Positions 1-21,257 of a stretch of 21,483 nucleotides of DNA are shown in pieces. The first letter of the stretch is position 1; each line of letters opens with the position of its first letter. A model generated the notes under the pieces. That model was not told the origin of the DNA, did not search any database, and worked only from the letters and a program-made list of their open reading frames with translations. Source of the DNA: a virus; IMG/VR virus record IMGVR_UViG_3300049827_000312, positions 1 through 21,483 of that record; one strand, written 5' to 3'. Position numbers and translations under genes: made by a program.

Positions 1-2697
1 GATTCAGGTACGAGCAAATGGATTAACGTCTCAATCGGTGGTTCGGGTGGCATTCAGCCGTACGATGCAGGTTTAGCAGCATTAGCAGCAGCAGGTACAG
101 GCGTCGTTGTTATGGACGGCGATAATGCATATTTCCGCACACTGACAGCATCTACCGCAGCAGCTCTGCAAGGTGTTGCAATCGCTAACGGTTCTGGCGT
201 TGCTGGCAACCCAACAATCGGCCTTGATATTCACGGTCTGTCGGCAATCTCTTCTGTCGGTTCTACAAATGAACTCGTGCTGTGGGATGGTACAAACAAC
301 GTTCGTGCATCAGTTGCACAGTTGACAGATGGTATTATCGCTGACGGTATCGCATTTGATGACTTAACAGACGTCACGCTGGCCACACTTGCTTCGGGCA
401 ACATCCTGTATTACAACGGTTCTGCATGGGTGAACTCTGCTCCTGGTTCTACATCTGGTGTTCAAGCATGGAACACAGGTCTGCAAGATATTGCTGATGT
501 TGGCGCAACAACTGCTGGTGACCAGTTCTATTACAGCACCTCTGCAGGAACACTGGCACTCGGAACAGTAACAACTTATGGTCGTTCATTGATTGACGAC
601 GTTGATGCTGCAGCAGCACGTACAACACTTGGTGTTGTTATCGGTACAAACGTCCAGGCATGGGACGCTGACCTTGACACACTGGCAGGTTTCAATGCAG
701 GATGGGCAGATAGCACGTTCCTCGTTGGTACAGGCGGTGCAGAAGGTGCACGTTTCCAACTGGAAGATGGTGCAACAGCGCGCACATCGATGGGCCTTGG
801 CGATATCGCAACGATGGACCAAGACAACTTCATCAAGACAAACGGAACATCAACAATCACTGCTGACATTCCATTCACCAACAAGAAGCTGACGAGCGTT
901 GCAAATCCAACAGATGCACAAGACGCTGCAACAAAGAGCTATGTTGACGGCTTGGTTGCTGGTCTAGTTTGGTTGGCACCAATTGACACACCAAACCTGT
1001 TGGGTGATAACGTCACTGACCTGACAACAATCACAACACCAACAGAAGGTGATGCATATATTCTTCCATCTGACACCACACACTCTGGTGCAGCAGGTTG
1101 GTTAGTTGAATATCAGCCAACAGCTCCTCGTAATGGTGTTACAGTAGTCCCAGGTGCAGCAGGTTGGTACAAGGTGTTTGATGTCGCCGCAGAAGTTAAC
1201 GGTGGTCACGCTGGTGACAAGGTCCGCTTCGGTATCGGTATGGAAGCTCCTGTTGCTGCAACACCAGTCGGTACAGCTCTTGCTAATAAGCAAGGTCAGA
1301 TCATCCAGGTTGTGAAAGGTGCAGGAACATTTACAATCGGTTCTTCGACAACTGGTGCATTAGACGGCGCGACAAACAAGACAATCACATACACAACCCC
1401 GCTAGGTGGCCAAGCTACTCTGTCCCACATTGCTACTTCTTACCACTATGGTAACCAGCTGACATTTAGTGGCACATACAACCAAGCAACAAACGGTACT
1501 GATGGAGACAACTACTGGATTCATTTCGGTGGCACAACAGCAGTTCAAGCAGGTGTCGGTCTGTACTATAGCGGTAACATCCTGAACGTCGGTCTTGGTG
1601 CTGGTATCCATGAGTTGCCAGGTGACGAGGTTGGTGTTGATCTTTATGACACAGCGACCGGTGCTATCATTCTGACAACAGATGGTTCTGCACGGTCAAC
1701 AGCAACTGGTGCGAAGGTTCACCTGAAACTGCACAACAGTCAGTTGAACCAAGACGCAAACGGTCTGTTCATCGTCAACAGCGGCGTTACAGAAACACAA
1801 CTGGCAACATCCGTCGCAGGCGCAGGTCTGTCCGGTGGTGGTGGTGCAGCTCTGGCAGTCAACGTTGACAACAGCTCCATTGAAATCGTTTCTGATACAC
1901 TTCAAGTCAAGGCTGATGGTATCACAAATGCAATGCTGTTGAATGACACAATCGGCTTTGCTGGTGATTCAGGTTCTGGTTCAGTTGCACTCGGATCAAG
2001 CTTCTCTATTCTGACAGGACAGGGTCTAACATCTGTTGGAGCTAGCGGTAGCGTCACGATCAGTGGTGATAATGCAGACTATACTGCAAAGGGTGTTGCA
2101 TCGTTTGATTCTAACCACTTCACAGTAACAACTGGTGCAGTTAGTCTGAAGAACACATCAATCGCTCTGTCTGCTGAGTCTGGCACAGGTTCATTCAGCT
2201 TGTTGTCAACTGGTGCGTTCTCGATTGGTGCAGGAACAGGTATCGACACAAGCGTGACGGGCAACGCATTTACAGTTGCTCTGAATGCGAATATCGCTGA
2301 TCTGAACGATGTCAATGACAGTGGCCGTACAAACGGTGATCTGTTGACTTGGAACGGTTCTGACTGGGTTCCTGTTACACGCGCAACAATGGCTGGTTCA
2401 GTGACACTTGATGCACTGTCCGATGTTGCAGTATCGCACGTTGATGGAAACATCCTGGTGAGCAACGGTACCAACTGGGTCAACCAGAAGGCATACCATC
2501 TGTACACATCCAGTGGTGCAAACACATCACACACAGTGACACACAGTATCGGTCAGAAGTACTGCAATGTCACGGTCGTTGATTCCGCCGACGAGGTAAT
2601 CATTCCTCAGGCAATCACGTTCGTTGATGCAAACAGTCTGACAGTAACGTTCAACACAGCAATTGAGTGTAAAGTTATTGTGATGGGTATTGCGTAA
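1..2697 (+). CDS. Long tail fibre protein, C-terminal part (5' end outside window)
   Basis: The frame is open from base 1 and gives about 898 residues before the stop, so the true start lies upstream. The product is rich in Gly, Ala, Ser and Thr and has no Cys-rich or enzymatic motif, typical of a trimeric beta-rich phage fibre. Near the left edge it has text common in prophage and T4-like fibres (YDAGLAALAAAGTG, then RTLT and NGSGVAGNPT). Around 892-950 is the familiar fibre motif NPTDAQDAATKSYVDG. Four copies of a short motif of the form DLxDV...GN(I/L)L..NGxxWV lie near 238-312, 355-447, 2293-2376 and 2407-2487. The last 67 residues (from 2494) form a W/HTVTHSIG module shared with the next three genes. 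It is followed by a strong terminator. It probably contacts the host receptor. The exact T4 counterpart (gp34, gp36, gp37 or other) cannot be decided. Confidence 0.85.
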   Translation, partial: DSGTSKWINVSIGGSGGIQPYDAGLAALAAAGTGVVVMDGDNAYFRTLTASTAAALQGVAIANGSGVAGNPTIGLDIHGLSAISSVGSTNELVLWDGTNNVRASVAQLTDGIIADGIAFDDLTDVTLATLASGNILYYNGSAWVNSAPGSTSGVQAWNTGLQDIADVGATTAGDQFYYSTSAGTLALGTVTTYGRSLIDDVDAAAARTTLGVVIGTNVQAWDADLDTLAGFNAGWADSTFLVGTGGAEGARFQLEDGATARTSMGLGDIATMDQDNFIKTNGTSTITADIPFTNKKLTSVANPTDAQDAATKSYVDGLVAGLVWLAPIDTPNLLGDNVTDLTTITTPTEGDAYILPSDTTHSGAAGWLVEYQPTAPRNGVTVVPGAAGWYKVFDVAAEVNGGHAGDKVRFGIGMEAPVAATPVGTALANKQGQIIQVVKGAGTFTIGSSTTGALDGATNKTITYTTPLGGQATLSHIATSYHYGNQLTFSGTYNQATNGTDGDNYWIHFGGTTAVQAGVGLYYSGNILNVGLGAGIHELPGDEVGVDLYDTATGAIILTTDGSARSTATGAKVHLKLHNSQLNQDANGLFIVNSGVTETQLATSVAGAGLSGGGGAALAVNVDNSSIEIVSDTLQVKADGITNAMLLNDTIGFAGDSGSGSVALGSSFSILTGQGLTSVGASGSVTISGDNADYTAKGVASFDSNHFTVTTGAVSLKNTSIALSAESGTGSFSLLSTGAFSIGAGTGIDTSVTGNAFTVALNANIADLNDVNDSGRTNGDLLTWNGSDWVPVTRATMAGSVTLDALSDVAVSHVDGNILVSNGTNWVNQKAYHLYTSSGANTSHTVTHSIGQKYCNVTVVDSADEVIIPQAITFVDANSLTVTFNTAIECKVIVMGIA
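2494..2694 (+). repeat. Adhesin module copy 1 (C-terminus of long fibre)
   Basis: These 67 codons encode YHLYTSSG..HTVTHSIG..CNVTVVDSADEVIIP...SLTVTF..A.ECKVIVMG. The layout (aromatic start, x-V-x-H-x-[LI]-G, a V-x-V strand, an IP turn, a final T-V-T-F and IVM strand) is the same as in the five other copies in the window. The Trp seen in the other copies is replaced by His here. This looks like a small all-beta domain at the fibre tip. Confidence 0.6.
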
Positions 2698-2715
2698 TTG
2701 TAGCGAAATAAGATC

Positions 2716-2738
2716 GGGGGAGCGTACGCTCCCCCTTT
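2716..2738 (+). terminator. Rho-independent terminator after long fibre gene
   Basis: A perfect 20-nt palindrome (2716-2735, five G's to five C's around a central AGCGTACGCT) is followed by TTT. It lies 18 nt after the fibre stop codon and ends or attenuates the fibre transcript before the adhesin cassette. Confidence 0.8.
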
Positions 2739-2771
2739 CGTATACAGGATGACTATAGAGGAGAACGAATT

Positions 2772-3383
2772 GTGAAAAGCTACGGCAATCTCAATTTTCA
2801 AAACAACTTTGCTCAAGAAGTAAGATTTGATGTTGAGCAGGAATTCCCAACGGACACAAATAGGATGGTTGGACGGATTATCTTCAAAGATAAGCGTCTT
2901 TACATTTGTGTTGAAATTGCAAGTGGATTACCGGTGTGGGTGCCACTGACAAACGAAATGGATACGTACGTGCACACACAAGTGTCCGGATCAACGACAT
3001 GGAACGTCACACACAATCTGAAAACAAACAACCCACTCGTGCAGGTGTATGAAGCTGGCACTAACGTGATGATGATCCCTGATGAAGTGTTGATTCTCAG
3101 TCGGGACGAACTTCGTATTTCGTTTGGTGATGCTGTGTCGGGACGAGCAATTATCATGTTTGGTGACATCACAGGTGGACAAAAGACGTCATATGCGTAT
3201 GAATATTTTGTAACAACCCCATCGAATACGTGGGTTATTACTCACGGTCTTGGATATGAACCAATCGTTCGTGTGTTTGTTGATGGACAAGAAGTGCAAC
3301 CGTACTCAATCGTACACGACTCAATGTCACAAACAACGATTTCGTTTACGAGCCCACAAGTTGGAGTAGCAAGATTCATCTAA
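2772..3383 (+). CDS. Short tail adhesin protein with two WxVxHxL modules
   Basis: The 203-aa protein starts at GTG 2772, preceded by GAGGAG at 2758-2763. Residues 1-65 (NLNFQNNFAQEVRF...VGRIIFKDKRLYIC) resemble an attachment segment seen in T4-like environmental phage fibres. Residues 66-131 and 143-203 are two copies of the module found at the end of the preceding fibre: TTWNVTHNLKTNNPLVQVY and NTWVITHGLGYEPIVRVFV. No enzymatic motif is visible. The stop is followed by AAGGAGG and the next gene 12 nt on, so these genes are probably cotranscribed. The likely role is a minor fibre or adhesin. The family assignment is inference from composition, neighbours and the shared module. Confidence 0.7.
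   Translation: MKSYGNLNFQNNFAQEVRFDVEQEFPTDTNRMVGRIIFKDKRLYICVEIASGLPVWVPLTNEMDTYVHTQVSGSTTWNVTHNLKTNNPLVQVYEAGTNVMMIPDEVLILSRDELRISFGDAVSGRAIIMFGDITGGQKTSYAYEYFVTTPSNTWVITHGLGYEPIVRVFVDGQEVQPYSIVHDSMSQTTISFTSPQVGVARFI
2967..3164 (+). repeat. Adhesin module copy 2
   Basis: Residues 66-131 of the 203-aa protein: YVHTQ...TTWNVTHNL...PLVQVYEAG...MIPDEV...ELRISF...SGRAIIMFG. This is the most complete match to the common pattern, including the YxHxQ start also seen in copies 4 and 6. Confidence 0.65.
3198..3380 (+). repeat. Adhesin module copy 3
   Basis: Residues 143-203 of the same protein: YEYFVTTPSNTWVITHGLG, PIVRVFVDG, then TTISFTSP and VARFI. It is directly in tandem with copy 2 and diverged from it in sequence, so the duplication is old. 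Confidence 0.65.
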
Positions 3384-3395
3384 GGAGGCACTATT

Positions 3396-3635
3396 ATGGC
3401 AGAAGAAGTAAGGTTTAGTGCAATCCAAGGGACGTATACACACATCCAAACAACTCCAGCGACAGTGTGGGAAATAGCACATCTGCTCGGTACATTGTAT
3501 CCGATCGTTGATGTGTGGGTTGACGATAATGGCACAGAACGGAGAATTCTTCCTGAGAGGGTGCGTGCTATAAATGCTGCAACTGTGGAGATTACATTCT
3601 CCACAGCGACTGCAGGTCGTGCGACAATAATTTGA
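3396..3635 (+). CDS. Stand-alone single-module adhesin protein (79 aa)
   Basis: The start is ATG 3396, with AAGGAGG at 3382-3388 overlapping the previous stop. After 13 residues (MAEEVRFSAIQGT, which echoes EVRF in the preceding protein) the whole chain is one module: YTHIQTTPATVWEIAHLLG, PIVDVWVDDNG, ILPERV, TVEITFSTATAGRATII. A protein this small carrying essentially only the shared domain suggests it assembles on, or can be swapped with, the neighbouring fibre proteins. Its spacing and strong RBS support real expression. The function is inferred only. Confidence 0.7.
   Translation: MAEEVRFSAIQGTYTHIQTTPATVWEIAHLLGTLYPIVDVWVDDNGTERRILPERVRAINAATVEITFSTATAGRATII
3435..3632 (+). repeat. Adhesin module copy 4
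   Basis: Residues 14-79 of the 79-aa protein: YTHIQTTPATVWEIAHLLG, PIVDVWVDDNG, ILPERV, TVEITF, AGRATII. The gene holds nothing else besides 13 leading residues. Confidence 0.7.
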
Positions 3636-3647
3636 CGGAGAAACATT

Positions 3648-5417
3648 GTGCTAAGTTATAGACAATCATTTACAAACTCTTCGACGTGGACTGTAATACA
3701 CGATCTCGACACAACAACTCCGATTGTTGATGCATGGGTCGTGTATGGAGGTAACACAGAGAAAATATTGGCTTTAGATTATCGTATCGTCAATTCGAAT
3801 ACGATTTTGATCGTATTTTCTTCGAATCAGACTGGTGCTGTTCGTGTTGCCGCTCCATCAGAAAGCACAGCGCAAGCAACATATCCACCTGGGTATACCG
3901 GCGATGGAATATATCCGCCGATTGAGCATTTTACACCACCGCCTAATTTGGCTCCAACCGCAACAATAGACACGCCAGCAACTTCGCCAGTGACAATCGC
4001 TGAGGGACAGTTTGTATCCTTTACAGGAACAGGAAGCGATCCTGAGCTGCAGCCACTAACGTATTTGTGGGATTTTGATGGTGGTGCGACGAATACAACG
4101 GAACAAGACCCTGGAAACGTGATGTTTGATACTGCAGGGACTTATGCTGTCGTGTTTAATGTGAGTGATGGAACGAATACCACAACAGATACAAGAACGA
4201 TTGTCGTTGTTGCTCGTTGGCAAACACAGTCAAAGTTATTAGCTAGTGATGCAGCAGCAAACGACACTTTTGGCAATTCTGTGGCAATGAGTAGTGACGG
4301 GAATACATTGGCTGTTGGTTCGAGTGGTGACGACACTGCCGCCGGCTCAAATACTGGTTCTGTCTATATCTTCACTCGTAGCGGTTCTACATGGAGCGAG
4401 CAGGCAAAATTGGTAGCAAGTGATGCAGCAGCGGGTGATACGTTATCGAAGGTGGCAATAAGCAGTGACGGGAATACGGTTGCTGCTGGTGCAAGCGGCG
4501 ACGACGACAGTGTTGCCGGGTCAAACACCGGTTCTGTGTACATCTTCACACGTAGTGGTTCTACATGGAGTCAACAGGCAAAATTGGTGGCAAGTGATAT
4601 GGCAGCAAGTGACCAGTTAGGCATAAGTGTAACTATTAGTAGTGATGGGAATACGGTTGCTGCAGGTGCCCACACTGATGATAATAGTGGTGGGTTGAAC
4701 GCTGGTTCTGTCTATATCTTCACTCGTAGTGGTTCTACATGGAGTCAGCAGACGCGATTGCAAGCAAGCGATGCAGCAGCAAATGACAATTTTGGTAATC
4801 CTGTGGCAATAAGTAGTGACGGGAACACGTTGGTTATTGGTGCAGCTTTTGGCGACACAACCGTTGCAGATACTGGTGCCGCCTACGTATTCACTCGTAG
4901 TGGTTCTACATGGAGTCAGCAGGCAAAATTGGTAGCAAGTGATGCAGCAGCAAGTGATCTTTTTGGCACAAGTGTAACTATTAGTAGTGACGGGAACACG
5001 GTTGCTGTTGGTGCTACCAGCGATGATACAGCCGCTGGTGCAGATACTGGTTCCGCCTACGTATTCACTCGTAGTGGTTCTACATGGAGTCAGCAGGCAA
5101 AATTGGTAGCAAGTGATGCAGTAACATTTGATGCATTTGGAGTGGCGGTGGCGCTAAGTGGTGATGGGAATGTATTGGCCGTTGGTGCTCAAGCAGACGA
5201 TACGGCTGGTTCAAATGTGGGGGCTGTGTATATGTACACACGCAACGGTTCCACCTGGACACCACGTTCTCAGTTGTTTGCGAGCGATCCGGGTTTCCTT
5301 GACTTCTTCGGTTGTTCAGTTTCGTTGAGCAATGGTGGAGATTGGTTGGTGGTGGGCGCTAGAGGTGACGATAATGCAGCTGGCGGAGATGTTGGTGCTG
5401 CCTATGTGTTCTCATAA
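3648..5417 (+). CDS. Adhesin: shared module + PKD domain + seven FG-GAP-like propeller repeats
   Basis: The 589-aa protein starts at GTG 3648 after CGGAG. Residues 3-67 are the shared module (SSTWTVIHDLDTTTPIVDAW). Residues 80-100 are a Pro-rich linker. Residues 101-189 are a PKD-like Ig fold (GSDPELQPLTYLWDFDGG, DTAGTYAVVFNVSDG). Residues 191-589 hold seven repeats of about 57 aa: [A/S]KLxASDxAAxDxFGxSVxISSDGNTxAVGAxxDDTxxxxxTGSxYxFTRSGSTW. The Asp-rich turns (DDT, SDGN) may bind Ca2+. The domain opens with an STWSQQ-like strand (WQTQS) and ends right after YVFS, as expected for ring closure of a seven-bladed propeller. PKD and FG-GAP domains commonly mediate protein or carbohydrate binding, so a receptor-binding role is likely. 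A strong terminator follows. Confidence 0.8.
   Translation: MLSYRQSFTNSSTWTVIHDLDTTTPIVDAWVVYGGNTEKILALDYRIVNSNTILIVFSSNQTGAVRVAAPSESTAQATYPPGYTGDGIYPPIEHFTPPPNLAPTATIDTPATSPVTIAEGQFVSFTGTGSDPELQPLTYLWDFDGGATNTTEQDPGNVMFDTAGTYAVVFNVSDGTNTTTDTRTIVVVARWQTQSKLLASDAAANDTFGNSVAMSSDGNTLAVGSSGDDTAAGSNTGSVYIFTRSGSTWSEQAKLVASDAAAGDTLSKVAISSDGNTVAAGASGDDDSVAGSNTGSVYIFTRSGSTWSQQAKLVASDMAASDQLGISVTISSDGNTVAAGAHTDDNSGGLNAGSVYIFTRSGSTWSQQTRLQASDAAANDNFGNPVAISSDGNTLVIGAAFGDTTVADTGAAYVFTRSGSTWSQQAKLVASDAAASDLFGTSVTISSDGNTVAVGATSDDTAAGADTGSAYVFTRSGSTWSQQAKLVASDAVTFDAFGVAVALSGDGNVLAVGAQADDTAGSNVGAVYMYTRNGSTWTPRSQLFASDPGFLDFFGCSVSLSNGGDWLVVGARGDDNAAGGDVGAAYVFS
3654..3848 (+). repeat. Adhesin module copy 5
   Basis: Residues 3-67 of the 589-aa adhesin: SYRQSFTNSSTWTVIHDL, TPIVDAWVVYGG, TILIVFSSNQTGAVRVA. 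It forms the N-terminal domain, before the PKD and propeller domains. Confidence 0.65.
4218..5414 (+). repeat. Seven tandem ~171-bp FG-GAP-like coding repeats
   Basis: There are seven in-frame repeats of about 168-180 bp. Blades 2-6 share long nearly identical DNA stretches, for example CACTCGTAGTGGTTCTACAT at the end of several blades, while the first and last blades are more diverged. Blade 2 is one codon short and lacks the FG pair (DTLSKVAIS instead of D.FG.SVxIS). The near-identity of the central copies suggests recent duplication or gene conversion. Confidence 0.85.
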
Positions 5418-5448
5418 TACAAGATAAAATTAAAAACTATACCTCAAT

Positions 5449-5474
5449 AAAGCCTCTTCGGAGGCTTTATTTTT
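5449..5474 (+). terminator. Rho-independent terminator after adhesin gene
   Basis: The stem AAAGCCTC/GAGGCTTT closes on a TTCG tetraloop and is followed by A then TTTTT. This is a textbook intrinsic terminator 31 nt after the adhesin stop. Confidence 0.9.
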
Positions 5475-5492
5475 CTGTGCGTGCGCATCGGT

Positions 5493-5500
5493 CATAAATA
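5493..5500 (+). promoter_or_regulatory. T4-type late promoter (CATAAATA)
   Basis: CATAAATA differs by one base from the T4 late consensus TATAAATA. It lies between a terminator and the ATG at 5534, with 33 nt before the start. The same octamer occurs before two leftward genes in this window. Confidence 0.7.
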
Positions 5501-5533
5501 CAATATCAACGTGTGGAAATATAGGAGAACACA

Positions 5534-6760
5534 ATGAATAAAGATGGATTAGGAGTCAGCGTAAGAGGACATTTGCGAGCAGTTGATGATCTTGGAAATG
5601 TGCTACTTGACAAGGATAATGCTGTACATCCACAAAATATGGCTCGTGTGATTGCTCGCGCATTATCAAACGAAAGCAATTATTTTGTTCATAGGATTGC
5701 GTTTGGAAATGGTGGTACAGTTGTTGATGCAGCACACACAATCACTTACAACACCCCGAACGACGGACAAGGTGGAGATTCAGCAAACACGTGGCGTTCC
5801 CGTTTATACAACGAAACGTACAGTGAAATCATCAACGAAGGGAACGTTTCTGTAAATGCGTTGCTTGGAACCGATCCAGGCAGTGCAAGTTCAGGCAACG
5901 AACGTCCAGGCGGCGGAGCAAATCCAGCAGGCGATCCTGCATCAATTCCACACGTATCTGGTCCAGGCGTCCGTTCTAATGAATTGGGCCTGACATCGGA
6001 AATTGTTATCACTGCTGTTCTGAATCCAGGCGAGCCGATGGGACAGTTAGGAACAGATCAAGGAACAGCCAACCCAGCAGATCCGCTTGCACAAACAGAA
6101 AGTTCTTTCTGGTTTGATGAAATTGGGTTATTCACGTCTGGTGCGCCTCTGATTGCAACAAGTGGATATCAGTATATTGACGTCGGCAATCGTGTTTCGA
6201 CCGATCCGACTGGTTTATTGCCGAATACAGCATATTCATTCAGTATTGCTGTTGATGGTGGATCAGCTGTTAGCGTTAGTTTCACGACCCCTGCCGGTGG
6301 CACAGGTGCAAACGGTGAAATCACATATGGCGACCTGTGTGAAGCAATTAACACCGGGGATACTGGCTGGAATCCACTATGGAATGGCGTTTCTCCGTTG
6401 CCTGTTGTTGCAACAGTTCCGACAAAAATCTCAATAACGGATTATTCGGGTGCATATTCGACGATTGCGAACGCACAGACATATGGATATCTGATGTTCG
6501 AGTCGCCAACAACCGGTGCATTGAGTGCAGTTGATGCAAGCGGTGCAATGTTCGCTGCATTAAACCCACCAACCGGTGGTGTGATCTTGACTGCTGTTGC
6601 TGGAAAATCTGCTGGTGTGCAAAATATGCCAACAGATCCAACAACAGAAGGTGAGCGTATGCTGACACACGTGATTTTTGCACCAGTGTTAAAGAGTGCA
6701 AACAGAACTTTGACGATCACTTACACGATCACAGTTTCAGTGGCAAGAACAGTGTATTAA
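5534..6760 (+). CDS. Conserved T4-like virion structural protein (408 aa)
   Basis: The start is ATG 5534 with AGGAG 8 nt upstream and a late promoter before it. The N-terminus (GVSVRGHLRAVDDLGNVLLD, then NMARVIARAL) and the AFGNGGTVVDA.HTITY segment match my memory of a conserved structural protein of T4-like marine phages. So do the late segments FWFDEIGLF near residue 195 and MLTHVIFAPVLKSANRTLTI near the C-terminus. Residues about 220-345 look like an added beta-rich domain (SIAVDGGSAVSVSFTTPAGG...YGDLCEAINTG) between the two conserved parts. It is transcribed alone and ends at the two-way terminator. It is probably a tail or baseplate-associated protein. The exact position in the virion is unknown. 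Confidence 0.7.
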   Translation: MNKDGLGVSVRGHLRAVDDLGNVLLDKDNAVHPQNMARVIARALSNESNYFVHRIAFGNGGTVVDAAHTITYNTPNDGQGGDSANTWRSRLYNETYSEIINEGNVSVNALLGTDPGSASSGNERPGGGANPAGDPASIPHVSGPGVRSNELGLTSEIVITAVLNPGEPMGQLGTDQGTANPADPLAQTESSFWFDEIGLFTSGAPLIATSGYQYIDVGNRVSTDPTGLLPNTAYSFSIAVDGGSAVSVSFTTPAGGTGANGEITYGDLCEAINTGDTGWNPLWNGVSPLPVVATVPTKISITDYSGAYSTIANAQTYGYLMFESPTTGALSAVDASGAMFAALNPPTGGVILTAVAGKSAGVQNMPTDPTTEGERMLTHVIFAPVLKSANRTLTITYTITVSVARTVY

Positions 6761-6784
6761 CATCTGTTGTGTCGTAGTAAAAAG

Positions 6785-6813
6785 AAAGGGTCGCGAAAGC
6801 GACCCTTTTATTT
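6785..6813. terminator. Bidirectional terminator between convergent genes
   Basis: The stem AAAGGGTCGC/GCGACCCTTT (6785-6794 and 6799-6808) has a GAAA loop. Rightwards it is followed by TATTT. Leftwards the hairpin is followed by CTTTTTAC. It lies between convergent stop codons at 6760 and 6835 and can serve both. A second inverted repeat, TAACAAATA/TATTTGTTA (6819-6837), overlaps the leftward stop codon. Confidence 0.85.
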
Positions 6814-6834
6814 GGAGTTAACAAATACTATTTG

Positions 6835-7278
6835 TTATCGCTTGCGAGAAGGAGCACGTTGTTGAGTTTGCACTTCTTCTGTCACATCAGCAAATGGTGA
6901 TTCGGTGGAAGAAACCGCTTCATTCACTCGCTTTTTTGTTTGCACAACACCAGCACCAATGCGTCCGAGTTGTGGGTTGATGATTTTTCCGTTTGGTGTG
7001 ATTACTTTGACCAACTGGTGGAAATATTCCAATGCGTTTGCACCGTTTCCGAGCACTTTGTTTGCCATCAAGTCCCATAGTTCGAAGTTTGTTGCATTCC
7101 TATCGGAGATAATCTGCAGAACACGCTGACGATCAATCGTGTCAAGCTTAGCGACTTCGAAAAAGAAAATGTTGCCGGTTTGATCTTTCTTCATAATAGC
7201 ACACTCAACAAGTGTGCCATCATTGCCAAGATCGATCCACTCAATGTGTGGATATTGTGATTGTACTGTTTGGACCAT
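6835..7278 (-). CDS. Conserved T4-like phage protein, probably tail/baseplate associated (147 aa)
   Basis: The start at 7278 is preceded by AAGGAG in the leader. The chain WIDLGNDGTLVE, FFEVAKLDTIDRQRVLQII, LWDLMANKVLGNGANALEYF, HQLVKVITPNGKIINPQLGRIGA resembles a protein I have seen conserved among T4-like marine phages without an established function. The last 35 residues are polar and probably disordered, ending in a basic RKR. It follows the PAAR gene and has a weak late-promoter-like box in the 62-nt gap before it, so a late virion or assembly role is likely. No catalytic motif is visible. Confidence 0.7.
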   Translation of the reverse strand: MVQTVQSQYPHIEWIDLGNDGTLVECAIMKKDQTGNIFFFEVAKLDTIDRQRVLQIISDRNATNFELWDLMANKVLGNGANALEYFHQLVKVITPNGKIINPQLGRIGAGVVQTKKRVNEAVSSTESPFADVTEEVQTQQRAPSRKR

Positions 7279-7305
7279 TTTGTATTCTCCTTGTTAAGAT
7301 GAGAA

Positions 7306-7313
7306 TATTTACA
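7306..7313 (-). promoter_or_regulatory. Possible late promoter (TGTAAATA)
   Basis: TGTAAATA on the minus strand is one mismatch from TATAAATA and lies 27 nt before the ATG at 7278, in the only sizeable gap of the three-gene late cluster. It is weaker evidence than the [T/C]ATAAATA boxes. Confidence 0.35.
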
Positions 7314-7340
7314 TTGTATTTTTTAGGGGGGACCAATTGT

Positions 7341-7628
7341 TTATCCGTTGATAAACACGTCCGGTGATCCTGATGCAGCACTGCCACCGTGGCAAGGTCT
7401 TCCACAACAATGTCCTGGGTGTGGATCATTTACTCTTGCTGCTGGGATATTGTTAATGAATACGTTTGGAGATCCTTGGACGATTGGAACAGGCGGAAAA
7501 CAGTGTCCGGCAGTGACATCAACGTATGCTCTTGTTGCTTTCAGGTTATTGGTGAATACATCATCGCTGCCGTTAGCCATAACGTCACCACAAGTCATTG
7601 GATCAGAAAGTCTGTATGCTGCTGGCAT
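7341..7628 (-). CDS. PAAR-motif spike tip protein
   Basis: The 95-aa protein is close in length to T4 gp5.4 (97 aa). It begins MPAAYRLSDPMTCGD and has repeated G-[SN]-[DP]-x-V-F-[IT]-N-[NG] hairpins: GSDDVFTNN, GSPNVFINNIPAARVNDPHPGHC, GSPDVFING. The His/Cys-rich segment DPHPGHCCGRPCHGG is the usual site of the metal ion that holds the sharp tip together. PAAR proteins cap the central baseplate spike and help pierce the outer membrane. It starts 1 nt after the stop of the upstream coiled-coil gene, so translation is probably coupled. That neighbour may be a baseplate partner. Confidence 0.9.
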   Translation of the reverse strand: MPAAYRLSDPMTCGDVMANGSDDVFTNNLKATRAYVDVTAGHCFPPVPIVQGSPNVFINNIPAARVNDPHPGHCCGRPCHGGSAASGSPDVFING

Positions 7629-7629
7629 A

Positions 7630-8046
7630 TTATACGTTCATGTTCGTTGGGTTTGGTGCGTCCGCTGGGCGAGCCACAGTGCTTTGTTCTGCCTGAATGT
7701 TAGCATATGTATCAGCAGGCATAGTCGCTTTTAATGTTTTATTTCCTATGTCGTGAGAATATCGCATCCAATCGTTTTGTTCTTCTATTTCGCGGATGAT
7801 TACATACAGGTTGTTAGCAGAAGCTTGCGTGTCTGCTTGTATTCTCGACAATGTGTTGTTGTGTGTTCCCCACGCAGTTACCATGTTGCTCAGGTGGGTC
7901 AGTTGCGTGTCAAGTTTGTCGTTTCTTGCTTGTTCTTTGTCGTTTAGAGTTTGCAACTTGTCGGCAATCGTAACAAGTGTATTTTTTATCTCTGTTAGAA
8001 TAGCGGTATAGTCAGGACCCGATGATGATGGTGGTGTTTCTGGCAT
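7630..8046 (-). CDS. Coiled-coil protein upstream of PAAR (138 aa)
   Basis: The start is ATG 8046 with CGGAG upstream and a perfect TATAAATA late promoter 22 nt before it. Residues 13-110 are heptad-like and helical (ILTEIKNTLVTIADKLQTL, NDKLDTQLTHLSNMV, YVIIREIEEQNDWMRYSHDI), flanked by Pro/Ser-rich ends. It heads a late transcript that continues into PAAR. This layout suggests a tail or baseplate component, possibly one that helps mount the spike. I do not recognise the family. Confidence 0.65.
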   Translation of the reverse strand: MPETPPSSSGPDYTAILTEIKNTLVTIADKLQTLNDKEQARNDKLDTQLTHLSNMVTAWGTHNNTLSRIQADTQASANNLYVIIREIEEQNDWMRYSHDIGNKTLKATMPADTYANIQAEQSTVARPADAPNPTNMNV

Positions 8047-8067
8047 AGTATTTTGTCTCCGTTTTCA

Positions 8068-8268
8068 TTATTTATACTCATCAAGCAGTTGTTGCCTGTG
8101 TTGTAACAACAGAGTGACTATGTGGTCAGCTTGTGCGGCAGTTAGCGCCAGCCGCACTTGTTCGCCTTTATTGTCTCCAAGTTGGAGAAGAACTGATTGC
8201 TCGTTATGTCCTACCGCATAATGAGAGCAGTTTATTGCCGCATTTTCGTTGATATACCAATGCCTCAC
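8068..8268 (-). CDS. Small protein of unknown function (66 aa), last gene of replication operon
   Basis: It starts at GTG 8268, overlapping the RNase H stop as GTGA, and has no strong SD, which fits translational coupling. The sequence WYINENAAINCSHYAVGHNE, SVLLQLGDNKGEQVRLALT, AQADHIVTLLLQHRQQLLDEY reads as a small beta sheet followed by a C-terminal helix. No family is recognised. The overlap, codon composition and intact frame support a real gene. Confidence 0.6.
   Translation of the reverse strand: MRHWYINENAAINCSHYAVGHNEQSVLLQLGDNKGEQVRLALTAAQADHIVTLLLQHRQQLLDEYK
8069..8076 (-). promoter_or_regulatory. T4-type late promoter (TATAAATA)
   Basis: An exact TATAAATA on the minus strand partly overlaps the TAA stop (8068-8070) of the last gene of the replication operon. 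It precedes the ATG at 8046 by 22 nt and so marks the switch from the replication genes to the late tail cluster. Confidence 0.8.
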
Positions 8269-10155: not shown

Positions 10156-10576
10156 TTGGTGTATCCTTATAAATTTTCAATTGTTCTTTTATTATAACAT
10201 TTTCACAACGATCTTGCAACCAGTTTCGAGCGATATGGCGATGGCAAAAGTCGTTTGGTGATTCATAACATAGGAGAATCGCCCCATTTGGTAGTGATTC
10301 TACAAGTTGTTGTACGTCAATGTTTCGTGATTGCAACAGTTTTAGGTATTCGACGGTATATTCCCGTTCTTTTTGTAACTGCAAGAGTTTGAGGTATTTG
10401 ACGGTATATCCCCGCTCCAACAAAGGCCGATGCTTATATTGTTCAACAATTTCCCACGTCGGTGCAAGAATTGGCAGCATTTCTCCTTCAAACCACGGAG
10501 GAGCGACCACACTTATGCTGATGGCAAGTGGGTGTTTCCCATTTCGTGCATAGTTTGATGTGTATAACCGTTTCAT
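10145..10576 (-). CDS. DUF488 family protein with internal duplication
   Basis: The 143-aa protein carries the DUF488 signature near the C-terminus: GAILLCYESPNDFCHRHIARNWL. It begins MKRLYTSNYARNG and contains the family-like SISVVAPPWF. The biochemical role of DUF488 is not established. Residues about 55-86 are two 16-aa copies (ERGYTVKYLKLLQLQK and EREYTVEYLKLLQSRN), so the chain is longer than an unduplicated version would be. The start overlaps the polymerase stop as TGATG, and the stop overlaps the clamp start, so it is translated within the replication operon. Confidence 0.8.
   Translation of the reverse strand: MKRLYTSNYARNGKHPLAISISVVAPPWFEGEMLPILAPTWEIVEQYKHRPLLERGYTVKYLKLLQLQKEREYTVEYLKLLQSRNIDVQQLVESLPNGAILLCYESPNDFCHRHIARNWLQDRCENVIIKEQLKIYKDTPNET
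10326..10421 (-). repeat. 48-bp in-frame tandem duplication inside the DUF488 gene
   Basis: Two adjacent 48-nt units share aligned blocks such as GGTATT.GACGGTATAT.CCCG (plus-strand reading at 10345 and 10393), exactly 48 nt apart. Unit boundaries are approximate. The copies differ at several positions, so the event is not very recent. Confidence 0.75.
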
Positions 10577-13167
10577 CAGAAACTCAGCAAGTCATTGACA
10601 ACAAGGTCCTGTTTTGAAGGAACATCATACCCGATTGCAGTAAGGATGTTTTCCAGTGGGTCGTCTATTAGACGCTCAATTTGAGCATCTTTATCAATTT
10701 GTGGTACGAAAAAGTCAAGGAACCACGACGGGATAATTTCTGTGTCGGTCGGCAGTGCAATGCTCTTGAATTTTCCTATTTGCTGCTTCAAGTAAAACAC
10801 TTTCAACTTTGTTCCTGATGTAATTGGCACACTTGCTTTATCGTCGTGAGCGATTAGGTTTTCATTGTAGTGAATAGCGGCTGCAATGTGGCCAGGAAGG
10901 CGTGCATTCAGTCCCAAACGTTTATATTCAGCCGCATAGTGCTCAACTTTGTTGGCACCTTTTGGCAGCCCAATCATCAGTATTTCACTATCAGGAATTG
11001 TGTGTTTGAGATAGTCTTTATACTCGATGATGTCGTTTGCGATTGTTTGCCAGGTTTCGCCCTTCAACAGCCGTTCGATGAACGAAGACAGCTTTTCTTG
11101 GATGTATTTTGGCAGTGTCGTCTTCTTCAGTTCCAGTCCCATCGTTTTCAGTTTATCGACACGTTTTCCTTCAATGTCAATCACGTGAAGGATGTATCGC
11201 TTCTTATCAACGAAAATCCCACGATCGCTAACCAGTTCTCGGCCAGCCTTGATAATGTTGTCGAACTCTGGCTGACACCGGAATGTGTTTATCATAAACT
11301 GCTGGTACGATTTATTGACCTTATCAGCAACAGCATCGGCAATCTTCACTGCATTGTCTGCATTGTCTGCATATGTGTTGAAATACGTTGAGTCTGTGTC
11401 GCCGTAAATCACAGCATCGCCTGTTGGATCGTACTGGTCTTCGAGCACTTGATTGACTGTTGCACACTGGTGTCGCAATATCATACGTCCAGTGCCGGTT
11501 GTGCTTTCTCCCATTCGCAGGTCGAAGAACCGGAAGTTGTAGTTTGATAACGCACCATAAGTGCTGTTCAGTTTGATCTTGAAGATGTATTGCAAACGAT
11601 CGTAGTATGCAGCTTTCGCTTTGTCTCCTGCTTTTTCCGCATCCTTCTTCATTGCTTGATATTTTTTACGAGTTGCAAACCATTCTGTCAAAATAGCAGG
11701 GATCACACCTTGTTTATCTTGGTTGAACACTGTGCCGTATCCACTGACGGACCACTTATTGTCCCACAGTATTTTCCACCAGTCATCAGCAGTGTGTGTT
11801 TCTTGGGTGTCATCCTCATATACGAGGGTCAGGTTAGCGAATGATTGTTTTGAAATCTCCTCTGCGGCTTTTACGTCTTCGCTAAACTGACCTACGATCT
11901 TTTCTGGCGATATGTTGATCGAACGGATTGAAGATGGATACAGACTGTTGATGTCGATTGAACCGACCCATTCGTGCATCCCAATCTTTGGATCAAGAAC
12001 ATATGCGCCCTGAATTGTTCCGTCAGCTCGTTCTGGGCTTGCATCAGGAACAACTGTATCAAGTACGTGATGGCAATAGTTGATAATTGCCAATTCTGCA
12101 AGTTTCACTGTCCCTGTGACGTGTTTGAACAGTCCAGTAGATAAGTGGTACATCTGGTTCGATAGCTCGACGTATCCGAGCGTGTCTTCGAACCCTTTCA
12201 AAATTTCTGTGTCTCGAATGTTGTATCGGACGAAGTACGGAAAGTTTTTTCTGTATAGTTGGTGCAACGTTCCTTCATATTTCAGCTTTGGTAAGTTGGG
12301 AAGAATTTCATCAGCAATCGCTTCCAATTTGTATGACGGACGGTTTGCCATTTCGTATTTCTTGAACAACGCAAGATAGTCCGTGCTAATTCTTCCGTGA
12401 AGATCAACAGTTAGATTGACTTTACCGAATTGTTCTACTTCTTTGAAGTATGGATATGGAGCTTCATCGAACGATAACTGACTGGCATATTTTTTGCCGA
12501 GCGTCAGTTCCATTCGTTTGACAATGTATGGCATATCGAAGAAGTCGCTGTTCCATCCAGCAAGAACATCACTGTCTTCAATTTCAGCGAGATAGTTCAG
12601 CAGCAGTTCTTTTTCGTTAGCACAGATGATGATTTCTGTGGTCGCATCGATCGGTTCAATTCCATTTACCTGTTGCCACAACTGATCAACGTCGTTCCAA
12701 TTGTTATCAGGAGGAACAACAAGAACCACATATTTTCCACCGTGGGTATGGTATAACGCGACAGCGTTGATAGGAGCATAAGGATTTTGAGTCGAAGCAA
12801 AACCAATCCGTTCATCATAATCGACCTCGATGTCGTGGAATGTTACGTGCAGTACAGGTGCAGGTTGCCCATAATACACCTGCGATAGTATTTTCAGTTC
12901 TGGTGCAAGGTCCGCTTCATATATTTGACATCGTCCCTTATCTTTGTAACTGTCTGAGGTATATTGTTCTTTGAATTGTTTGAAGTTCGAGCGGTTGGTG
13001 CATTCCATCTTAGCAAGACGCTCACCGTGCATTCCACGGTATTGACCGTCATCTGCGGGAAAGTAATAGTAGTATGGGGCGCGATACTTTTTCAGTATTC
13101 GCTCCCCATCAACACGTTCCCACACAAGGACGAGTTCGTCCTTGGTTAATGCATTTATGTATCCCAT
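10576..13167 (-). CDS. 43: Family-B DNA polymerase (gp43 type)
   Basis: The replicative polymerase has 863 aa (T4 gp43 has 898). The 3'-5' exonuclease residues are visible: D112 and E114 in HDIEVD, D211 in NSDFFDMPYIVKR, and D319 in YNIRDTEIL. Polymerase motif A is DINSLYPSSIR with D405. Motif B is KIKLNSTYGALSNYNFRFFD (about 530-549). Motif C is YGDTDSTYF with D590 and D592. The C-terminal tail VVNDLLSF is a plausible clamp-binding peptide like that of gp43. The start overlaps the stop of the DsbA-like gene as TAATG. The enzyme is intact with no frameshift or intein. Confidence 0.97.
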   Translation of the reverse strand: MGYINALTKDELVLVWERVDGERILKKYRAPYYYYFPADDGQYRGMHGERLAKMECTNRSNFKQFKEQYTSDSYKDKGRCQIYEADLAPELKILSQVYYGQPAPVLHVTFHDIEVDYDERIGFASTQNPYAPINAVALYHTHGGKYVVLVVPPDNNWNDVDQLWQQVNGIEPIDATTEIIICANEKELLLNYLAEIEDSDVLAGWNSDFFDMPYIVKRMELTLGKKYASQLSFDEAPYPYFKEVEQFGKVNLTVDLHGRISTDYLALFKKYEMANRPSYKLEAIADEILPNLPKLKYEGTLHQLYRKNFPYFVRYNIRDTEILKGFEDTLGYVELSNQMYHLSTGLFKHVTGTVKLAELAIINYCHHVLDTVVPDASPERADGTIQGAYVLDPKIGMHEWVGSIDINSLYPSSIRSINISPEKIVGQFSEDVKAAEEISKQSFANLTLVYEDDTQETHTADDWWKILWDNKWSVSGYGTVFNQDKQGVIPAILTEWFATRKKYQAMKKDAEKAGDKAKAAYYDRLQYIFKIKLNSTYGALSNYNFRFFDLRMGESTTGTGRMILRHQCATVNQVLEDQYDPTGDAVIYGDTDSTYFNTYADNADNAVKIADAVADKVNKSYQQFMINTFRCQPEFDNIIKAGRELVSDRGIFVDKKRYILHVIDIEGKRVDKLKTMGLELKKTTLPKYIQEKLSSFIERLLKGETWQTIANDIIEYKDYLKHTIPDSEILMIGLPKGANKVEHYAAEYKRLGLNARLPGHIAAAIHYNENLIAHDDKASVPITSGTKLKVFYLKQQIGKFKSIALPTDTEIIPSWFLDFFVPQIDKDAQIERLIDDPLENILTAIGYDVPSKQDLVVNDLLSF

Positions 13168-14906: not shown

Positions 14907-15851
14907 TTAGACCTCCAACGATTCCAGCGCGTGTGTTCTTATAAATCTGATCATATCTTTCAAAGAAACATCATTAGTTTCAAGGGTAATGATAGCGTCT
15001 TTTACTTTATCGTAATCAGCAGAAATAGTCAACGGAAAGTCTTGAAATGTGTCGTTTTCGAATAACTTGTTTAGGTAATCCCAATCGACCCCTTCAGATG
15101 GATCGACAACAAATTGTCCTTGTTGTAAAGCGTTTTGTCCTAATAGAACAGGATAGTCCATATTAGCACGATCGTTCAGGTTGAAGTGAACACTTTTGAT
15201 CACTTGACCATTGACCTTGATGTCCATAGCAATTATTGGTCGTCGTTCAACACCACCATCAGATGTGTGAACATCGTGAGTGCCAACCAACGGAACAGTC
15301 AATGTTCCACCAAATACAGACGATCGGAACAACACTCGATCGTCGCTAATCTTCCAGTCTTCGGCGTGAACTGAACTTGTTGTTGCACCTGTATCAACCT
15401 TTGCAGTCAATACTTTACCCAACTGGATAAACATAACTTCTGTTGTTAGTCCAATTGGCTGTTGCTGTTCGTTGACCCAGTCTTTATCAAGTTCCAAAGC
15501 ACCCAATCGTTGTGGCATTGTTGGGCGAACATTGACGGGCATTATCACATTGATGTTCGGATTCCACTTCCACATAAATGCAAGCATTGTCCCAGGTTGA
15601 TCTGCGGTCGTCGTTGGATTTTGTTTGCGCGACATTGCAAAATCGTAATACAGCTGGTTTGCTCGTTGTGCATCAATCACATACAACATAAACATATTCC
15701 AACCTTCGTTGATCACTTTGTCAAGAGGTGGATTGTTTGATTTTTGGAAATGGTAGTTGATTCCTTCAACATTGATTTTTTGTTGAGGAACGAACTGCCT
15801 GCGAACAAACGCCATCCGAAGGTCGTTGATTGTGGAAAATTGCTCGTTCAT
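14907..15851 (-). CDS. Retropepsin-like aspartic protease (RimB / 'ATP-dependent zinc protease' family domain)
   Basis: The protein is 314 aa from ATG 15851, chosen because it overlaps the previous stop as ATGA and has AAGGG upstream; an in-frame GTG at 15887 is less likely. The C-terminal half has the aspartic protease signature LTAKVDTGATTSSVHAEDW with catalytic Asp D153, a flap-like region, RRPIIAMDIKVNGQVIKS, and NDRANMDYPVLLGQNALQQG, all features of the RimB-like single-domain family. The N-terminal 130 residues form a separate domain of unknown function (YHFQKSNNPPLDKVINEGWN). Phage members may process virion or host proteins. The target here is unknown. Confidence 0.78.
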   Translation of the reverse strand: MNEQFSTINDLRMAFVRRQFVPQQKINVEGINYHFQKSNNPPLDKVINEGWNMFMLYVIDAQRANQLYYDFAMSRKQNPTTTADQPGTMLAFMWKWNPNINVIMPVNVRPTMPQRLGALELDKDWVNEQQQPIGLTTEVMFIQLGKVLTAKVDTGATTSSVHAEDWKISDDRVLFRSSVFGGTLTVPLVGTHDVHTSDGGVERRPIIAMDIKVNGQVIKSVHFNLNDRANMDYPVLLGQNALQQGQFVVDPSEGVDWDYLNKLFENDTFQDFPLTISADYDKVKDAIITLETNDVSLKDMIRFIRTHALESLEV

Positions 15852-16108
15852 TCGGCACCCTTCATATACATCACGCGTGTCGCACACTCTGCTGCCCTTC
15901 TGGCAAACATCTCAAAGTCGCGCAGCGTTTGGATTGTCAGTTCGCCGTTGTCGATGTGCTTAGTATCTAAACGATCGCCCCACACACTGAACAGCACTCG
16001 CAGTGAGTCCAACTCCATTTGAAGTTTTTCGACTTCTTTTTCCATCACTTGCTGGTCGATTGTTGTTTGTTCTGCAAGCGAATGATAAAACCGATCTTTG
16101 ATGTTCAC
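15848..16108 (-). CDS. Coiled-coil protein of unknown function (86 aa)
   Basis: It starts at GTG 16108, overlapping the nuclease stop as GTGA, with GGGGAG upstream. Residues 8-40 are strongly helical (TTIDQQVMEKEVEKLQMELD), followed by LFSVWGDRLDTKHID and a helical end. No family is recognised. Its tight fit between two overlapping genes supports a real gene. Confidence 0.6.
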   Translation of the reverse strand: MNIKDRFYHSLAEQTTIDQQVMEKEVEKLQMELDSLRVLFSVWGDRLDTKHIDNGELTIQTLRDFEMFARRAAECATRVMYMKGAE

Positions 16109-20254: not shown

Positions 20255-20283
20255 ACGATAAATCAAACAACAACTAAAATCAA
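20255..20283 (-). promoter_or_regulatory. Possible sigma70-like promoter upstream of helicase gene
   Basis: TTGATT (20283-20278) and TATCGT (20260-20255) on the minus strand are 17 nt apart, each four of six to the consensus, in the 47-nt gap before the helicase. This is weak evidence. Confidence 0.3.
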
Positions 20284-21257
20284 CGGTAAAATATTGGGGG
20301 ATATGTTGGTACGATTGTTGTTGGATCGCAATATGTTTCACCATTTACGTAGAAGAGTGTTGGTAAAGATGTCGTTGAACTAAAAGTATCCACCAGATGG
20401 TCGGTTGTTTTGTCATACACAGTGAATGGTGATGTTGCTAACAGTATCAACACTTGGTTTGCTGCAACCGGTGTTAGGTTGATCATTGGAATTGTGATCG
20501 GTGCTGATGTAACACCCGTTGCTGCAATATCGCTGTTGAACACATTGAAGCTGAACACTTTGTAGTTCGTTCTGTTGATTACAACAAGCGAATCGTCAGC
20601 ATCCACCCACGACGAAAGGATCGATGGTCTGTTATCAATCCTGTATGTGTATTGGAACTGTGGCGATGCAAGGAACGTGACAGTCAGTGGGAACGTCTCT
20701 GAATCTGTAAACAGATTTTGTGCAATGTCGTACCTTACTGCGATCGTTAGTTCGCCCTTGTTTGTTACCAGCACATTTTGTTTGCTGACAACAGGTGGTG
20801 GTACTATGTTCTTATTTTCAGATGTTACTGTGAAACACTGCACTTCTCCTGCCTCAAACGAATCAAACGTCAACGTCAGTGAGTATATGTCGTTGTATGT
20901 AACGGTGGGCTCAGCAGGTATTAGATACGGTTGGTTGTTTTCGTCATATCTTGTAACATACGTTTTTAGAACGGGAATTACACCGAGATTGTGCTTGATT
21001 CTCCACACGTTTGCAGCAATTGCCTGAACGTGTGTATAAATCATCTTTTTCTGATACCAATAGTCTAATCCTTCAACAGGATCTGCAAGAACCTTTGCTC
21101 TTGCAGGAACCAGACGTCGTTTTACCTTGTGGAGTGTGCCGAGGCACCCATCAGTAATAATACACCGCTGTGCAGTGTCAATTCCGTGCCGGTTGTATTG
21201 AACATCAACCTGACGATTACACGTATCGCATTTGTAAGTTACAATTCCATCAGCCAT
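20280..21257 (-). CDS. Virion protein with N-terminal zinc ribbon and WxIxHxL module (325 aa)
   Basis: It begins MADGIVTYKCDTCNRQVDVQ. Four Cys (C10, C13, C32, C38; C-x2-C-x18-C-x5-C) form a likely zinc ribbon. Residues 74-142 are the module found in the rightward fibre cassette (YTHVQAIAANVWRIKHNLG, then LTLTFDSFEAGEVQCF). The C-terminal 180 residues are beta-rich (PLTVTFLASPQFQYTYRIDN; TSAPITIPMINLTPVAANQV). The start overlaps the upstream partial gene by 8 nt. The shared module suggests a tail or baseplate surface protein even though it lies beside the helicase. No exact family is recognised. Confidence 0.65.
   Translation of the reverse strand: MADGIVTYKCDTCNRQVDVQYNRHGIDTAQRCIITDGCLGTLHKVKRRLVPARAKVLADPVEGLDYWYQKKMIYTHVQAIAANVWRIKHNLGVIPVLKTYVTRYDENNQPYLIPAEPTVTYNDIYSLTLTFDSFEAGEVQCFTVTSENKNIVPPPVVSKQNVLVTNKGELTIAVRYDIAQNLFTDSETFPLTVTFLASPQFQYTYRIDNRPSILSSWVDADDSLVVINRTNYKVFSFNVFNSDIAATGVTSAPITIPMINLTPVAANQVLILLATSPFTVYDKTTDHLVDTFSSTTSLPTLFYVNGETYCDPTTIVPTYPPIFYR
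20832..21038 (-). repeat. Adhesin module copy 6 (leftward)
   Basis: Residues 74-142 of the zinc-ribbon protein: YTHVQ...NVWRIKHNLG...PVLKTYV...LIPAEP...SLTLTF...AGEVQCF. It is particularly like copies 2 and 4 in the YxHxQ start, although it lies 17 kb away on the other strand. Confidence 0.65.

Follow-up and report, generated by a model that had tools for sequence, protein, structure and literature searches.

The 589-aa product of the gene at 3648-5417 combines an N-terminal module shared with phage fibre proteins, a PKD domain and a predicted seven-bladed FG-GAP_2 propeller, and we consider it probable, at roughly 70%, that it serves a large contractile-tailed phage as a virion adhesin. The window (the whole stretch of DNA analyzed, 21,483 bases) is a complete IMG/VR virus record and probably a fragment of a virus genome. 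In the proposed arrangement, the N-terminal module, a local fibre building block, probably docks the protein onto neighbouring module-bearing fibre proteins, the PKD domain would serve as a spacer, and the propeller would form the outer head, with loops that may bind a host-surface glycan or protein. Presence in the particle, docking and binding are what we infer for this protein; receptor binding is likely, given the position of the gene and the domain partners of the propeller. Among the structures that such an adhesin could form, we favour a fibre of the tail or baseplate over a whisker on the neck or a fibre on the head. The coordinates of the gene, its parts and its neighbours are collected in Table 1.

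Table 1. Features in and around the propeller gene, in positions of the window (aa, amino acids).
Feature	Positions	Strand	Remarks
Tail/virion protein, module C-terminal	1..2697	+	Open at window edge; homologue of PaBG gp257
Terminator-like hairpin	2716..2735	+	5' of the 203-79-589 gene group
203-aa gene, two module copies	2772..3383	+	Homologue of PaBG_00258 and Erwinia phage proteins
79-aa gene, module alone	3396..3635	+	Homologue of PaBG_00259
Fibre module, PKD and seven FG-GAP_2 blades	3648..5417	+	589 aa; GTG start, open frame to stop
N-terminal beta module of ~70 aa, motif TWxxxHxL, residues 1-72	3648..3863	+	phrog_28944, phrog_21918; AlphaFold2; BFVD
PKD domain, residues 111-187	3978..4208	+	PF18911, PF00801; ColH PKD structures by sequence
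Predicted seven-bladed propeller, residues 191-589	4218..5414	+	Pfam stretches, AlphaFold2, PDB fold matches
Expected closing strand (outer strand of blade 7), residues 191-197	4218..4238	+	Strand 194-197 in model; terminal phase shared by 39 arrays counted
Terminator-like hairpin, 11 pairs and T run	5446..5471	+	3' of propeller gene
phrog_11259 protein	5534..6760	+	Homologue of XacN1 ORF329

The gene follows two module genes across gaps of 12 bases, and GGAG lies 8-11 bases 5' of its start codon. FG-GAP_2 (PF14312) matched the product in seven stretches with 331.3 bits against a curated cut-off of 23 (E 4.7e-101); "FG-GAP-like" is apt wording for this propeller. The repeats begin at residues 191, 249, 307, 365, 422, 480 and 537 (bases 4218, 4392, 4566, 4740, 4911, 5085 and 5256), with a spacing of 58, 58, 58, 57, 58 and 57 residues; the last unit, of 53 aa, is cut before the GST linker. 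A first-pass annotation made from the letters alone had described seven repeats of ~57 aa filling residues 191-589, opening with WQTQS and closing with YVFS; Pfam and the repeat spacing confirm the former, and both end motifs are found in the sequence. Its PKD domain was also borne out, as one Pfam domain above the cut-off (PF18911, 41.6 bits against 27; E 1.3e-10). Other Pfam matches, HPS5 and BT_3987-like among them, were weak and were rejected, with scores below or close to the cut-offs.

Blade-to-blade median pairwise protein identity is 62.5%, with blade 7 the most divergent. This value, computed by our own procedure, is borderline above the >60% median blade identity that marks highly repetitive propellers (PMC9218822). 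A single open frame spans all seven copies. Because the blades are 51-79% identical in pairwise DNA comparison and the longest exact repeat in the array is 69 bases (at 4879 and 5053), a copy number collapsed or expanded through assembly, which the first-pass annotation had named as a threat to its reading, is unlikely: the copies are too diverged.

Structure prediction of residues 191-589 returned a propeller, as had been anticipated, and not some other fold. The AlphaFold2 model of the full-length protein, built with 16 family sequences, has block-average pLDDT values of at least 73 throughout the propeller, mostly 87-98; the PKD domain is moderately confident and the N-terminal module is not confident in this model. 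Modelled in the propeller are 28 strands (mostly pLDDT 80-98) in the order D, six times ABCD, then ABC, that is, seven four-stranded blades, which agrees with fold matches to integrins and other propellers. Strand order together with the PDB matches points to pairing of the first and last strands, and strand order and phase fit a "3+1" closure, in which strand 194-197 would complete blade 7. The earlier claim that the repeat phase is cut as ring closure needs is thus compatible with the strand order of the model and with the arrays of relatives.

The top PDB fold matches of the model are the integrin alpha heads aXb2, a4b7 and a5b1 (E 7.7e-17 to ~1e-15, probability 1.00). This predicted fold is common to both, although sequence identity to the integrin alpha head is 17-20%. 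Integrin-type propellers are defined by an FG-GAP/Cage motif in every repeat and DxDxDG in the A-B loop (PMC3192720). The strict Cage motif, a relaxed pattern of it and the DxDxDG calcium loop all had no match in the 3648-5417 protein. Membership of the integrin family was rejected on the absence of these motifs, and we therefore describe the domain as an FG-GAP_2 ring whose predicted fold is integrin-like rather than a strict integrin-type propeller. The receptor-binding protein of Staphylococcus phage phi11 includes a five-bladed beta-propeller; it is likewise a phage protein with such a ring, but the propeller family, blade number and attachment domains are different. As for the VCBS supercluster, marked by conserved G and W in the C-D loop and by DxDxDG in loop A-B (PMC8023676), GSTW occurs at all six internal C-D junctions, giving the G and W, whereas the DxDxDG mark is missing from the protein. 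The role typically associated with VCBS-like propellers is recognition of carbohydrates (PMC9218822), which favours an adhesin.

Blades in relatives were counted with a repeat profile, applied to 28 viral loci, 35 bacterial loci and named phages; the counts cover arrays that were clear of contig ends and had at least 15 bits in each repeat. Seven or 14 repeats were found in 20 of the 25 viral arrays and 31 of the 34 bacterial ones. In 39 arrays counted for phase, the start falls at profile positions 1-14 (mostly 1-5) and the end usually at 49-55, before the linker. Seven is the rule among FG-GAP_2 arrays, a conclusion drawn from the breadth of the sample (many bacterial phyla, several phage groups) and not from binomial values, because the arrays are not independent of one another. 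The bacterial locus L048 has 12 repeats and two more in an ORF just upstream, and therefore 14 in all. This split 2 + 12 array (1223-8110 of the locus) may reflect a broken gene or an error in sequencing.

In the N-terminal part of the protein, residues ~4-69 match phrog_28944 and phrog_21918. Modelled on its own with AlphaFold2, from the six window copies only, the module reaches a pLDDT of 92.8, and predicted viral structures in BFVD share its fold with TM of about 0.7-0.88; those matched are annotated as collagen-like, Peptidase S74, Mtd_N, Stf-repeat and pectate lyase. On these models, the TWxxxH module is a general phage fibre module. Solved structures offered no clear relative by sequence, and the best PDB fold match was not significant (E 0.21). 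What links the module to phage fibres is therefore sequence families and predicted viral structures.

The module is common to three neighbouring genes of the tail cluster and to many phage fibre proteins, which favours an adhesin; the first-pass view of a modular protein joined to the local phage module holds on the same grounds. The phage setting is borne out as well. PaBG_00257 to 00259 are homologues of the first three module genes in conserved order, and gp261 and gp263 belong to the same PaBG cluster as gp257. All three of gp257, the homologue of the 1-2697 neighbour, gp261 and gp263 were detected in purified virions (PMC7412058 Table 1), and this too argues for an adhesin. The modules of PaBG_00258, PaBG_00259 and the Erwinia phages resemble the N-terminal 70 aa of the 589-aa protein, whose TM against predicted phage proteins reaches 0.88. 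In PaBG and pEa_SNUABM_5, however, the module stands alone, is repeated or ends a longer protein, with no adjoining propeller seen. A further copy lies at residues ~73-139 of the 325-aa product of 20280-21257 (minus strand), a gene beside the replication genes; the cysteine-rich start of that protein, ahead of the module, may be a zinc ribbon.

While the module genes are nearest to PaBG and Erwinia jumbo phages, the DNA polymerase and a 408-aa protein are nearest to the jumbo phages XacN1, CM1 and RAS14, at about 45% identity. The two neighbouring gene sets (1-6760 and 10576-13167) therefore differ in their nearest kin and make up a mosaic. When the whole window was compared with named phages by megablast, there was no match. 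XacN1, which the DNA polymerase and the 408-aa protein mark as kin of the phage studied, reportedly has no tail fibres (PMC5852040), and this counts against an adhesin. Two other genes lie on the minus strand: 7341-7628, just past the fibre cluster, encodes a 95-aa PAAR-motif protein that is possibly a tail-spike tip, and the 326-aa product of 14907-15887 lacks a PHROG match and has a putative ATP-dependent zinc protease domain (PF05618).

Phage FG-GAP proteins with seven-repeat propellers include those of Vibrio phage nt-1 (AGN30308.1), cyanophage S-TIM5 (AEZ65754.1) and the IMG/VR loci L001-L027; they share the propeller, but their N-terminal parts are different. Where their genes lie bears on the role of the protein. 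In L019 and L025, the propeller genes have tail-fibre or gp10-like genes (phrog_9729, phrog_677) on one side and neck genes on the other, and T4 has its short tail fibre and whisker genes at the corresponding place. The propeller of L013 is fused to Mtd_N, the seven-repeat relative in S-TIM5 is annotated as a virion structural protein, and L001, L020 and L027 each have two or more different propeller genes side by side. Together with the gene sites in L002, where three propeller genes in a row come directly after the major head and head proteins, these observations lead us to prefer a virion adhesin, with the tail as its most likely site.

The same L002 genes make a head fibre possible, since they come after head genes. 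It is nonetheless unlikely that the protein decorates the head or neck as a fibre or whisker and raises encounter rates by binding glycans or particles without selecting the host. The nearest PHROG of the 1-2697 neighbour is filed under head and packaging, in keeping with such a decoration, but the PaBG homologue of that same gene is listed as a tail component (PMC7412058 Table 1). Moreover, the propeller genes of L019 and L025 adjoin fibre and baseplate genes, and the Mtd_N fusion points to tropism.

Considerably less probable is a non-virion protein of infection, such as an exported or cell-bound adhesin akin to bacterial FG-GAP_2 surface proteins. Bacterial relatives do carry signs of surface proteins (L045, for example, has passenger-associated repeats), and the nt-1 propeller gene is surrounded by hypothetical genes, at a distance from the annotated tail genes. 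However, the N-terminus here is a fibre module with no evident signal peptide, and the gene is placed 12-base gaps behind two module genes and ends at a terminator-like hairpin. Least probable of all is a ring or cap that binds no ligand and only builds a baseplate or fibre joint: propellers are common scaffolds and some phage propellers are structural, but this one is C-terminal, at the free end of the fibre module and spaced by PKD, and several different propellers in a row suit variable adhesins better.

Returning to the adhesin and its origin, bacterial PF14312 propellers (e.g., L044-L047 and L052) are of the same repeat family, with seven or fourteen blades and the same terminal phase. 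Their best matches to the window are 53-54% identical, and those of viral loci are 49-61% in the best segment. In a tree of the propellers, the window row branches from an unresolved node that it shares with bacterial and viral rows, and phage relatives already group among themselves. As judged by these sequences, acquisition from bacteria, an option raised in the first-pass annotation, is possible. A PKD domain was absent from the 15 phage relatives scanned and, by Pfam, from the scanned bacterial loci L045, L046, L047, L052, L058, L060 and L061; the TWxxxH module was found neither in the phage relatives nor in any bacterial locus searched. The first-pass annotation had proposed looking for the same module-PKD-propeller order in other phages and in host surface proteins; none of the other loci searched had it, and neither the 203-aa protein nor the module-PKD half, used as queries against viral contigs, brought up a confirmed relative. 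Among the loci searched, the fusion was seen only in the 3648-5417 gene; phage FG-GAP proteins are already known from annotated records (nt-1, S-TIM5).

No description of phage FG-GAP propellers as a class was found in the literature searched, and a 2024 paper on a prasinovirus put it forward as possibly the first virus in which FG-GAP domains had been confirmed (PMC11467894). Many phages carry FG-GAP domains, here with a predicted integrin-like ring on a fibre anchor. We tentatively suggest, at somewhat less than even odds, that FG-GAP_2 propellers are a widespread and so far undescribed class of phage adhesin heads, swapped among N-terminal anchors (the TWxxxH module with PKD, Mtd_N and others) and held at seven or fourteen blades by ring closure, such that phages would reuse an integrin-like fold for cell binding. 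If the ring is a host-binding head, phage attachment uses the same fold as animal integrins, and the seven-or-fourteen rule offers a simple way to spot such adhesins in unannotated viral sequence. Two further observations were made among the loci searched. L001 (4465-11110) and L027 (1-6860) hold several different propeller genes in a row, most of them seven-bladed, and in Sinorhizobium phage Phosso (L042, 5640-16718) a single protein of 3692 aa contains dozens of weak FG-GAP-like repeats.
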